A DNA stretch of 40,231 nt. Source: Wenzhouxiangella sp. (GTDB lineage: Bacteria > Pseudomonadota > Gammaproteobacteria > Xanthomonadales > Wenzhouxiangellaceae). The notes under the pieces were generated by a model that did no database searches, was not told the DNA's origin, and saw only the letters and a list, made by a program, of their open reading frames with translations. The stretch lies in the NCBI GenBank assembly GCA_007694055.1, contig RECK01000174.1:1-40231 (forward strand). Reading direction: 5' to 3'. Positions 1,683-40,231 of this stretch are shown here, piece after piece (position 1 is the first letter of the stretch; each line of letters starts with the position of its first letter). A program made the position numbers and the translations under genes.

Positions 1683-1750
1683 ATCAGGTCGGGAATGACC
1701 CGGATATCACCGCTTGCGAGGGACAGGAACTGGACACAACGGGTCTATCC

Positions 1751-1793
1751 GAATCTTGCAAGATTCAGGAGCCTGTCGGAAGCAGAGGCTCCT
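1751..1793. repeat. 16-bp perfect palindrome (GAATCTTGCAAGATTC) followed by a 7-bp stem-loop (AGGAGCC..GGCTCCT)
   Basis: Read directly; lies just 3' of the TPR gene and next to repeat-family sequence. Confidence 0.6.
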
Positions 1794-1837
1794 TCATTCC
1801 AATCGTTGTAACGACTCGTTGCGGCCTGGATAAACGG

Positions 1838-1872
1838 GGCTGGAAGGGTGGAGGCCAGGTGCCGAGTGGTCG
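1838..1872 (+). repeat. Partial copy (arm) of the dispersed repeat family
   Basis: GGCTGGAAGGGTGGAGGCCAGGTGCCGAGTGG resembles 7354-7385 and 40194-40221. Confidence 0.55.
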
Positions 1873-1948
1873 CGAACGGGGTGGGTTCATGCCCATGCGC
1901 TTGGAGACAACACGAACATGGCCGCCGGGGACGTGGCCCCGGCCTACG

Positions 1949-2073
1949 CTGGTCAGGTCCGAGGAGGTTGGGAGATAAGGAAAACAATCGCAAGGCCCCG
2001 CCTTTCAGCCTCCTCCCCTCTCTCGCAACGGGCGGTATCTGGCCGCTCAAGGCCGGCTTCGCGACCTGACCAG
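1949..2073 (+). repeat. Dispersed intergenic repeat, MITE-like copy with perfect 11-bp terminal inverted repeats
   Basis: CTGGTCAGGTC (1949-1959) ... GACCTGACCAG (2063-2073); interior matches reverse complement of 16738-16805 (58/68 by eye) and contains the GGGCGGTATCTGGCCG core. Confidence 0.75.
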
Positions 2074-4172: not shown

Positions 4173-4213
4173 CTCGTCAGGTCCGCCGGCCAGATACCAC
4201 CGGGTGCGAGACT
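4173..4213 (-). repeat. Dispersed repeat family, short copy
   Basis: Minus strand GTCTCGCACCCGGTGGTATCTGGCCGGCGGACCTGACGAG; matches the right half of 1949-2073 including the end motif. Confidence 0.6.
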
Positions 4214-4226
4214 CGGATAGATCCGC

Positions 4227-4264
4227 AAAAAAAACCCGCACCTCCCTGACAGGAAGGTGCGGGT
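4227..4264 (-). terminator. Rho-independent terminator downstream of the penicillin acylase gene
   Basis: ACCCGCACCT..AGGTGCGGGT 10-bp stem with 8 A on + (T-run on -). Confidence 0.85.
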
Positions 4265-7182: not shown

Positions 7183-7349
7183 ATTGTAAATCCCCGTCGT
7201 TTTGGTTGTATGTACACTGGATTATGGCACAAGCATCCGCAGCCTGCGACATCAAAAAACAGGTCTATCCGAATATCCCTGTGCCTTGCAATCCCGTCAG
7301 GGGCAGAGGCAAGCTTCAACCTTTGCGGCAAATCCTGGCGGGTCAAAAA

Positions 7350-7421
7350 AGGAGTTTGGAAGCGTGGTGCCCAGGTGCCGGGCGGCCGGATACTACCCGG
7401 CGCATTCTCCACCCTTGCCGG
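7350..7421. repeat. Dispersed repeat family, palindromic copy (arm-core-arm)
   Basis: TTTGGAAGCGTGGTGCC..CGGCCGGATACTACCCGGCGC..TCCACCCTTGCC; reverse complement matches GGAAGGGTGGAGGAGGCACCGGGTGGTATCCGGCCG at 40196-40231. Confidence 0.65.
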
Positions 7422-16461: not shown

Positions 16462-16682
16462 TGGACTTACTTCCCACCTGTTTGAGTGACAAGTCTAGCC
16501 TACCCCACTGCCTGCCCCCTTACATTCATATTGGGAGAAAGTCGACCGCGCCTTTGCCGATGACCTGAACCAGGCCGCAAGCACCGGGGTCCAGAACCCG
16601 GCACGCGGCCATCTGTGCGCAGAAAACAGCCGGGGTTGCACGAGAATTTTCGCCTTGATTTGCACGGGCCATTTAGCCGCCT

Positions 16683-16805
16683 GGAGCCGGGAGCGCTTTT
16701 GCTTGTTGCCAGCTGGTGAAAAAGAGATTGGAAGGGTGGAGGAGGCTGAAAAGCGGGGCTTCGGAAGGGTTTTCCTTATCTTCCAACCTCCTCCTACCTG
16801 ACCAG
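16683..16805. repeat. Dispersed repeat family, long copy between pilU and ygfX
   Basis: 16683-16746 matches 40149-40212 at 60/64; 16738-16805 matches reverse complement of 1949-2016 at about 58/68. Confidence 0.85.
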
Positions 16806-17219
16806 TGACGAACGGGCAGTCTGGCGCAAGAAAACGGTCAGGCGTCGAAAGTCGTCGGTTTCCACCTGGCCTCGAAACAGGCCCAGACGGCTTGGGCCGG
16901 AACCTGTGGCCAGGAACCAGGGGCTGAGGAAAGACGAACCCGATGTGAGAATCCGATGCTCTATGCCGGCCCGATTGATCCCTTTCAGGGAATTCGAATG
17001 GATAATCAGCGCGCTCCAGCGAGGCCGGAGCAGCCGATCAACAGCGAACAGACCGTAAACCAAGGTCAGACCACTGGAAATGATCTTCAGACTGAGGGCC
17101 CAGCCACTGAGCCAGATGGATACCCCACCGGCAATCATGACAACAGCGACGAAAACTGCCGCTACCCGCGAGGGCCCAATATTGATTCGATTATCGGCTG
17201 TCGGGACGCAAGTCTTCAC
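16794..17219 (-). CDS. ygfX: YgfX/CptA-like inner-membrane protein (GTG start proposed)
   Basis: Two TM segments then WFLATGSGPSRLGLFRGQVETDDFRRLTVFLRQ; next to sdhE. Track ORF extends to 17354, but that would overlap most of sdhE. Confidence 0.6.
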   Translation of the reverse strand: MKTCVPTADNRINIGPSRVAAVFVAVVMIAGGVSIWLSGWALSLKIISSGLTLVYGLFAVDRLLRPRWSALIIHSNSLKGINRAGIEHRILTSGSSFLSPWFLATGSGPSRLGLFRGQVETDDFRRLTVFLRQTARSSLVR

Positions 17220-17463
17220 CGGCAGCCTGAACCTCACTGACGATACGACCAAGGCTCGCCGGCGGCGCCGTGCGACCGAGCAACCAATCCCACAGCTGAT
17301 CGTCTTCCTGATCGAGCAAGTCGGCAAAATCCTGTTGCAGTTCAGGATCCGCATCTGGCCAGCGTTTTGCCAGCCACGAGCTCAGCAACACATCTAGCTC
17401 GCGCATACCGCGGCGGCAACGCCAGCGCAGGCTGGCAGCCAAACGGGAGTCGTCCTGACTCAT
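17191..17463 (-). CDS. sdhE: FAD assembly factor SdhE
   Basis: 90 aa; RRGMRELDVLL motif; QEDDQLWDWLLGR; downstream of sdhB. Confidence 0.88.
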   Translation of the reverse strand: MSQDDSRLAASLRWRCRRGMRELDVLLSSWLAKRWPDADPELQQDFADLLDQEDDQLWDWLLGRTAPPASLGRIVSEVQAAGEDLRPDSR

Positions 17464-31429: not shown

Positions 31430-31475
31430 GGTTGGGATGTGGAAGTAGCACCGGGCGGTATCCGGCCGCTCATGG
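31430..31475 (+). repeat. Dispersed repeat family, copy between comEC and exbB
   Basis: GGGATGTGGAAGTAGCACCGGGCGGTATCCGGCCGCTCATGGC; GCACCGGGYGGTATCCGGCCG shared with 40211-40231. Confidence 0.7.
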
Positions 31476-33758
31476 CGAGGACTCACAGCCTTGCCCACGC
31501 CGCCAGAAGCGCGGCTGGCGTCCAGCCTGGGTCAATAGTCGTGGTTCAGCACCGGGCTGCATGGTGACGGTAATCGCACCGCACCAGGCGGTACTGACCA
31601 GGCGGGCCTCAATCGCGTTCAAGCGATCGGCCAGCTCCGGGTGGGGCCGGCCGGAGCGATCGACCGCCGAAACCGAGGCCAGGGCCAGGCGGGGGCCCAG
31701 CCGGGCCAGGAATTCGGCACTGCCGGCGCGCCGATGACCACTGGCCGAAAGCACCAGGACATCGGCCTGCAAGTCTTCATTCTCCAGCAACAGCCGCGCC
31801 TCGACGGACTGATCAATACCACCGGTCAGCAACAGCGAACCACCGGGACCTGAAACATGCAGGACGCAGGCGCTGTTTCCGCCCAGGTCCGGCAAACCCG
31901 GAGAAGGATGCAGGAAGCGGAACTGCCATGAACCGCTGTGCCATTCTGCGCCGCTCTGGCAAGGCTGACCCACGACCCCGTGTGCGCTGAAAACGGCCAG
32001 TCCGGGGTCTGACAAGTCCAGTGTGCCAAGACCGCCGGCGTGAGCGCGATGTCCATGCGACACCACCAGGCGGTCCAGCGAATCAGCCCCGAGCGCATTC
32101 AACAGGCCAGGCAAAGTGCGTCCAAGCGCGTCGTTGCCCTCACCGTCACCCGGGCCCGTGTCATAAAGCAGCACCTCGTCCGCTGTTCGCACCAGCACCG
32201 CCAGGCCACTGCCCACGTCCATGACGGTCATCTCCAGCGCATCGGGCTCGAGCGCGGGCAGCCGCGGCCACAGCAGCGGCACAATAAGGGCAAGGCCCAG
32301 CCAACGCCCCGGCCAGCCGCGCGGAGCAATCAGCCACAGGGCACCCACCAGCGCCAGGCTGACGGTCAGAAGGCCTGCGCCCGGAACCTGGCGATAACCC
32401 AGATCCAGCCCATCAAGCACATCCAGAACCCGCAGCAACCAGATCAGCCCGGTTTCAGTCAGCCACAGCGTCCAGGTCGCCGGCAGGTCAAGCATGATCA
32501 GAACCACACTGAGCAGAAGAGACGGCAGAATCAGCAGCCCAACCAGGGGAATGGCGACCAGGTTGGCCGGAAACGCCACCGGCACCAGGTGCTGGAATAC
32601 ACCTACGTTGAGCGGCAGCATGCCGATCGCAATGACGACCTGGGCCCGGAACAGGCCGGCCAGCCAGCCCGACGAGCCGCCATCGGCAACCGGGCGCCAG
32701 GCAAACGCCCAGATCAGCACGGCAACCGCGGCAAAGGACAGCCAGAAACCGCTGGCCAGCGGGGCCAGCGGGTCAAGCAGCAGAATAAACGCAAAAGCCA
32801 CGACCAGGGCATGGGCCGGCTGCAGACCGCGCCGCAGCAGCAGCGCACCGGCAGCCACAACCAGCATGATCAGGGCACGTTGAGTGGGCAAGGTCCAGCC
32901 AGCCAGGAAACCATAGCCGGTGGCGGCGAGCAGCGCGCAGAACAGGGCCAGGCGACGACGATCCAGGCGCGAACTGGCCAGCACTAGCGGAGCCAGCAGC
33001 CAGCCGCCGACCACTGCGGCCAGGCCGGCCACCATGCCGACATGCAGGCCCGAGATGGCCAGCAGATGCGCGGTACCGGTTCGCCTCAGGCGCTCACTCA
33101 ACTCGGCATCCATGCCGGCGCGATCGGCCAGGGCCAGCGCCCGGGTCAGGGCCGCCGCCCGGTGATAGCGGGTTTCGGCCTGCAACACTTCGCTCAGGTA
33201 CTGGCGTTGGCGATCGACCCGGCCACGCCAGCGCGACTGTCCCAGCGCACGGGGCACGTCGACAACACTGGCCAGCCCCCCGATCCGCAATGCGACCAGG
33301 TGTCGATGGAGGTCGAAGCCGCCGGGATTGAGTCGACCGTGCGGCGGATCCAGGCGCAGCGGCAGCTCCCAGCGCTGCCCCGGACGAACATACTCTGTTG
33401 GTCGATACCAGCTCACCTGCAGGCGAGCGGGCAGGCCATCAGCCTGACCGCGATCAGGAATGAACAGGAAACGAACGCGCTGGCCACGGTATTCCGGCAA
33501 ACCGACCACGGTGCCATTGACCGTCAAGCGGGTACCGGCATCAGCCGGCTCCCAGCTGCGTTCCTGCTCCAGGCCGGCCTGAAACAGGAACCACCCGGCC
33601 CCGACAACTATCAACCCAAGCTGGCGCAGCGGCGGAAAGCACAGGCACGGCAACACTATAAGCAGGACAACCAGGCTCCAGCCCGGCGGCGGCAGCGTTG
33701 GGGTCAGCGTGGCCAGCAGGACTCCGACAGCAAAGCTGAACGGCAGTCGCCAGTCCAC
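31470..33758 (-). CDS. comEC: DNA internalization-related competence protein ComEC/Rec2
   Basis: HLLAISGLHVGMVAG; C-terminal metallo-beta-lactamase-like domain (MDVGSGLAVLVRT, SHGHRAHAGGL). Confidence 0.93.
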   Translation of the reverse strand: MDWRLPFSFAVGVLLATLTPTLPPPGWSLVVLLIVLPCLCFPPLRQLGLIVVGAGWFLFQAGLEQERSWEPADAGTRLTVNGTVVGLPEYRGQRVRFLFIPDRGQADGLPARLQVSWYRPTEYVRPGQRWELPLRLDPPHGRLNPGGFDLHRHLVALRIGGLASVVDVPRALGQSRWRGRVDRQRQYLSEVLQAETRYHRAAALTRALALADRAGMDAELSERLRRTGTAHLLAISGLHVGMVAGLAAVVGGWLLAPLVLASSRLDRRRLALFCALLAATGYGFLAGWTLPTQRALIMLVVAAGALLLRRGLQPAHALVVAFAFILLLDPLAPLASGFWLSFAAVAVLIWAFAWRPVADGGSSGWLAGLFRAQVVIAIGMLPLNVGVFQHLVPVAFPANLVAIPLVGLLILPSLLLSVVLIMLDLPATWTLWLTETGLIWLLRVLDVLDGLDLGYRQVPGAGLLTVSLALVGALWLIAPRGWPGRWLGLALIVPLLWPRLPALEPDALEMTVMDVGSGLAVLVRTADEVLLYDTGPGDGEGNDALGRTLPGLLNALGADSLDRLVVSHGHRAHAGGLGTLDLSDPGLAVFSAHGVVGQPCQSGAEWHSGSWQFRFLHPSPGLPDLGGNSACVLHVSGPGGSLLLTGGIDQSVEARLLLENEDLQADVLVLSASGHRRAGSAEFLARLGPRLALASVSAVDRSGRPHPELADRLNAIEARLVSTAWCGAITVTMQPGAEPRLLTQAGRQPRFWRRGQGCESSP

Positions 33759-40004: not shown

Positions 40005-40148
40005 AAAGGTTTATATCCGGATCCCGCAAACCCCTGATTGCACGAAAGGCACTGAGTACGCCGAGCCGGGCATGCGCTTTCTTTGTGCAGAAAAGTAGGG
40101 GCAGCTGCAAAGCTTTGTACTGTGGCTTGAGTGCGGTTTCGGCTGTCT

Positions 40149-40231
40149 GAAGCCGGGAGCGCTTTTGCTTGCTGCAAGCTGATGAAAAAGAGATTGGAAG
40201 GGTGGAGGAGGCACCGGGTGGTATCCGGCCG
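40149..40231 (+). repeat. Dispersed repeat family, copy truncated by the window end
   Basis: 60/64 identity to 16683-16746, then GCACCGGGTGGTATCCGGCCG core. Confidence 0.85.

Follow-up and report, generated by a model that had tools for sequence, protein, structure and literature searches.

Hairpin-forming intergenic repeats of a Wenzhouxiangella genome are fragments of one non-coding miniature transposable element, very probably of ISL3 type

The window analysed here, a stretch of 40,231 nucleotides from a contig of Wenzhouxiangella sp. (RECK01000174.1), carries six copies or relics of a hairpin-forming repeat (Table 1), all of them positioned between predicted genes or at gene ends. The copy at 1741-2060 has a TPR-domain open-reading frame (ORF) on one side and a WS/DGAT gene on the other, and the other copies lie near ORFs matching penicillin-amidase, tryptophan-dioxygenase, ComEC-like and RNase E/G proteins. 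The relic at 31449-31476 runs into the ComEC-like ORF (31470-33758, minus strand) at its stop codon, and an ORF at 16794-17354 shares its 3′ end with the copy that stops at 16805. The relic at 4187-4224 directly adjoins a hairpin that resembles an intrinsic terminator and carries a run of A (4227-4264). The internally deleted copy at 16592-16805 shows a 9-bp overlap at its A/D junction, and the copy at 40009-40231 is interrupted by the contig end. An earlier note on this DNA had placed related sequence at six sites in the window, and all six do carry it; the extents given there for several copies were too short. The copies placed at 1949-2073, 7350-7421 and 40149-40231 reach further, to terminal repeats at 1741-1761, 7261 and 40009 respectively, and the first of them stops at about 2060.

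Table 1 Copies of the element in the window, parts of the element, and target duplications
Feature	Position, length or location	Strand	Details
Left-truncated MITE copy	1741-2060	-	Block alignment; terminal repeat with at most 1 mismatch to right-end consensus
Parts of copy 1741-2060			Right terminal repeat 1741-1761; right arm F 1741-1869; E1 with GTAG-tagged palindrome 1869-1948; hairpin D 1949-2016; end of C 2020-2054
Short relic	4187-4224	+	End of C 4187-4211 joined to degenerate right terminal repeat 4204-4224 (3 mismatches)
Old degenerate copy	7261-7416	-	Right terminal repeat 7261-7281 (5 mismatches)
Parts of copy 7261-7416			Inner end of F 7348-7387; start of C 7383-7403; end of left arm to about 7416
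Internally deleted copy without terminal repeats	16592-16805	+	A positions 53-206 (16592-16745) joined to D (16737-16805)
Relic	31430-31476	+	End of left arm and first 28 bases of palindrome C (31449-31476)
Left end of copy	40009-40231	+	Left terminal repeat 40009-40029; A 40011-40211; start of C 40212-40231
Left arm A	206 bp		Terminates in sub-terminal repeat GAGATTGGAAGGGTGGAGGAGG
Palindrome C	About 218 bp
Hairpin D	About 70 bp
E1 or E2	Between D and F		E1 starts with GTAG-tagged palindrome; E2 is a hairpin
Right arm F	126 bp
Target duplication	Own genome, contig C177		AAATAAAT, 8/8
Target duplication	Own genome, contig C22		GAAAAATG, 8/8
Target duplication	Own genome, contig C229		CTATTTTA/CTATTTGA, 7/8
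Target duplication	Own genome, contig C198		TGGTTGAT/TGATTGAT, 7/8
Target duplication	Relative G009		CGAAAAAA, 8/8
Target duplication	Relative G014		CAGAATAT, 8/8

The layout of a single element was recognised by comparing many copies together with their flanks. It is bounded by 21-bp terminal inverted repeats and runs internally from left arm A through palindrome C, hairpin D and either E1 or E2 to right arm F, the inner part being a set of nested palindromes in which a sub-terminal inverted repeat, AAAAAGAGATTGGAAGGGTGGAGG, surrounds hairpins C, D and E2. In the draft genome (4.15 Mb, 459 contigs), the left terminal repeat GGTTATATCCGGATCCCGCAA was matched 59 times and the right one, read inward as GGGTCTATCCGAATCTCGCAA, 86 times with at most three mismatches, compared to 0 in reversed controls; both counts are approximate, as a few places fit both patterns, and exclude copies that lack ends. 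The interior motif CGGGYGGTATCYGGCCG gave 77 matches with at most one mismatch against 1 in the reversed control, and 94 against 11 with at most two mismatches, so the search of the host genome for further copies, proposed in the earlier note, revealed a large family. The genome holds at least about 86 copies. Those bearing both ends span ~ 204 to 820 bp, compared to the usual MITE length of under 500 bp. The family is multicopy, non-coding and without a transposase; the longest ORF overlapping a complete 820-bp copy has 110 amino acids and lies amid overlapping ORFs on both strands, and a coding origin of palindrome C was rejected, since most copies have stop codons in the majority of frames. 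When folded, the complete 820-nt copy pairs along its whole length, from one terminal repeat to the other, with C, D and E2 enclosed (z = -5.6, 20 shuffles), and a 350-bp copy reaches z = -2.9.

The apparent mosaic structure of the repeats was examined by block analysis on a sample of about 0.88 Mb, whose contigs were selected mainly for carrying the repeat. Among the 103 clusters of blocks found, 83 combined two or more different blocks in a single orientation. The order A-C1-C2-D-E-F was kept in 79 of these, and the remaining four appear to be copies adjoining or nested in one another. A block in inverted orientation was also present in 11 clusters, which reflects partly the resemblance between left and right ends and partly, it seems, adjoining copies. 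Overlaps between blocks at the junctions were mostly negative owing to the way the block boundaries were set; a few junctions overlapped by 4-9 bp. The variety of copies is thus mostly the product of internal deletion within one colinear element, and the module shuffling proposed in the earlier note holds for a single exchange, that of E1 for E2. E1 occurred in 33 clusters and E2 in 8, never together, and E1 is probably the replacement because E2 is the arrangement in the relatives G009 and G014; E1 was hardly seen in the relatives' copies. The two interior modules described in that note are real sequences that turn out to be neighbouring parts of the same element, CACCGGGYGGTATCYGGCCG being an arm of palindrome C and GGAAAAC..GCCCCGC.TTTCAG the adjacent hairpin D, while the shared GGAAGGGTGGAGGAGG arm is its second, sub-terminal inverted repeat. 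Deletions, possibly via slippage across palindromes, would have given many of the shorter "mosaic" copies, and the GTAG-tagged palindrome would have taken the place of E2 in many others. Internal deletion in a palindrome-rich element can thereby mimic module shuffling.

The flanks of the element bear the marks of transposition. The 8 bases adjoining the ends are 76% A+T, compared to 42% in the next 8 and a background of 38% (65 ends), and 8-bp target duplications, matched by eye, were found in the element's own genome and in two relatives (Table 1). A clear duplication was absent from about 5 of the 9 own-genome copies with both ends, for which recombination between copies could be the cause. 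Insertion into the T-tracts of intrinsic terminators, hinted at by a few flanks (4224 in the window, L151 and L131), was rejected as a rule, as the flanks overall are only generally A/T-rich; the element would insert into A/T-rich stretches between genes. A further repeat located between genes, approximately GGAACCACCGAAGACACCGAAAGCACCGAAAA together with its inverse, recurs and is found next to several copies of the element (flanks L097, L099, L188, L115 and L201; L095 7276-7432).

A candidate for the partner that moved the element was found in Wenzhouxiangella sp. XN79A (G050), where a 1,426-bp insertion sequence with matching ends occurs 11 times, all copies being identical. It encodes a transposase of 432 amino acids that matches Pfam DDE_Tnp_ISL3 at 7e-69 and the NCBIfam ISL3 family transposase at 3e-88. 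Its right end is identical to that of the MITE over 21 bp, its left end differs at two positions, and its flanks are likewise A/T-rich; over the left 36 bp of the MITE, 31 of 36 positions match the end of the insertion sequence, as counted by eye. Unlike the MITE, it carries a transposase gene, and the homology between the two is limited to the ends. XN79A contigs break at the ends of the insertion sequence, which masks its target duplications, and no MITE copies were seen in that genome. Partial copies of the insertion sequence occur in relatives G018, G019, G012 and G063. Within G019, an ISL3 element with matching ends (G019:C1:1517094-1520365; L205 3095-6366) appears by eye to be interrupted by IS200-like and IS4-like transposase ORFs. 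An intact ISL3 transposase was not found in the element's own genome, a draft of 459 contigs that could miss one; an ISL3 relic of 73-84 amino acids on contig C14 was rejected as the partner, since its ends do not match.

Taken together, the scattered hairpin repeats are fragments of one non-coding, non-autonomous transposable element, a MITE and not a REP family, and its assignment to the ISL3 type is very likely. The element would have been moved by an ISL3-family transposase that, supplied in trans, bound its outer 21-bp repeats. Because the element's own genome retains only an ISL3 relic without such ends, we infer from the sequences that this enzyme acted in trans and was later lost, or was missed by the assembly. 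With the transposase source absent from the assembly, the family is probably a fossil or near-fossil in this genome, while in XN79A the related insertion sequence appears to have been active until recently.

The ISL3 assignment is in line with known systems. The ISL3 element ISPpu12a produces 8-bp repeats (PMC4133298). In Microcystis aeruginosa, a 187-bp ISL3-type MITE with 8-nt direct repeats (PMC11448079) has ends matching an ISL3 insertion sequence and a stem-loop, and its mobilisation in trans has been proposed; in contrast to the present element it is short, has the end sequence GGCTCTTCG, and is not described as having a nested hairpin core. The 179-bp ISMac21-related MITE of Methanosarcina acetivorans (PMC3852290) has likewise been assigned an ISL3 partner, but is short, archaeal and present in few copies. 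TIMEs, the mosaic miniature elements derived from Tn3 (PMC4133298), are also non-autonomous and thought to be mobilised in trans, but have Tn3-type ends and 5-6 bp target duplications. The element described here is therefore new as a family and unusually large and elaborate, while its kind is already known from ISL3-type MITEs elsewhere. Intergenic "mosaic" repeats that had been unexplained become one transposon family with a named type of partner. The family was found at many contig ends of the draft and for this reason probably helps explain the fragmentation of the assembly.

The earlier note had grouped the repeats as REP/MITE-type, and it is the MITE half of that label that stands, given the terminal inverted repeats, the 8-bp target duplications, the many copies and the small size of any ORF in the longest copy. 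A REP or BIME family spread by a RAYT (Y1) transposase appears extremely improbable. The genome does contain one Y1_Tnp gene, E1 opens with GTAG followed by a palindrome, a tag shared with a known REP superfamily (PMC3733652), and GTAG palindromes also exist outside the element, in a 58-bp tandem array on contig C99 and at two sites on the RAYT contig. However, Y1 transposition is not known to make 21-bp terminal repeats or 8-bp target duplications, E1 is missing from the copies that bear E2 and scarce among relatives, and the 2.2-kb locus of the RAYT gene contains no copy of the element, so this single gene was rejected as the partner. The repeat unit is 0.2-0.8 kb with terminal repeats and not a tagged palindrome of 20-40 bp; the GTAG palindrome is a component of some copies, within sub-part E1, and not the whole element as in the tagged REPs. 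The array on C99 (G000:C99:6582-7044; L278 2583-3045) consists of eight 58-bp units of the GTAG-tagged palindrome GTAGGCCGGGCCCACGCGCCCGG at a contig end, with two further units upstream on the same contig (L278 404-524). The RAYT-like Y1 transposase gene on G000:C234 (L093 1456-1968) is followed by short G+C-rich repeats near the contig end.

Maintenance of the element as a structured regulatory RNA or transcript-end element, as opposed to selfish DNA, would account for the conserved shape of palindrome C and for the position of several window copies near gene 3′ ends, and we consider it very unlikely. Palindrome C is nearly constant in length at 217-220 nt, with one copy at 212, across the own genome, G014, G009, G012 and G022, while its sequence diverges. 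In its 31-bp stem, 95.5% of cells are standard pairs (21 copies, five genomes), with eight pairs changed on both sides; these account for 44 cells compared to 16.8 ± 3.5 in shuffles, none of 500 shuffles reaching as high, and after a shift of one to three columns no more than 2 such cells remain. The copies are related by descent, so the cells are not independent events and the counts are inflated. As template-switch correction can also keep palindromes without selection, the compensatory changes show maintained palindromy and not necessarily function. Against a regulatory role, deletion and decay of copies have proceeded freely, shuffled versions of the truncated window copy fold about as well as the copy itself (z = -0.6), and the Rfam comparison suggested in the earlier note matched no known family (window at gathering score, five loci up to E = 1).

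The ISL3-type MITE may itself contain a separate layer, since the core can exist without the outer ends: G014 carries about 18 cores in unrelated flanks, with only three matches to ISL3-type ends, and a terminal repeat common to these flanks was not found. One reading, which would extend the main explanation without displacing it, is that the inner core, AAAAAGAGATTGGAAGGGTGGAGG around C, D and E2, is an independent mobile or REP-like element that ISL3-type arms captured or surrounded. The G014 cores share common inner boundaries, the hairpin at the right end of the core, GGGCAAGGCGACTCGKCGCCC, has 40 matches in G014, some in tandem at 32-36 bp, and in the own genome some copies begin or end at the same inner points (about position 180 of the left arm and about 40 of the right arm). 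On the other hand, neither a target duplication nor a transposase was found for the core alone, nearly all own-genome copies with outer parts preserved bear ISL3-type ends, and the inner boundaries could be recurrent deletion points, and we therefore regard this origin as possible but on the unlikely side. The stronger proposal, that the triple-hairpin core is itself mobile, conserved in length and pairing across Wenzhouxiangella, spreading without ISL3-type ends in G014 and riding inside ISL3-type arms elsewhere, is rather doubtful; if true, core and arms together would be a nested, two-layer mobile repeat. A conserved hairpin core occurring both with and without ISL3-type ends offers a testable case of a repeat riding on a repeat. 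The G014 hairpin GGGCAAGGCGACTCGKCGCCC also occurs alone, or in tandem at the spacing given above, in a REP-like manner. A second, different MITE-like palindrome with ends AGGAACCTCTGAATAACTCC lies inside a copy of the element at G014:C160 (L172 within 1501-2366).
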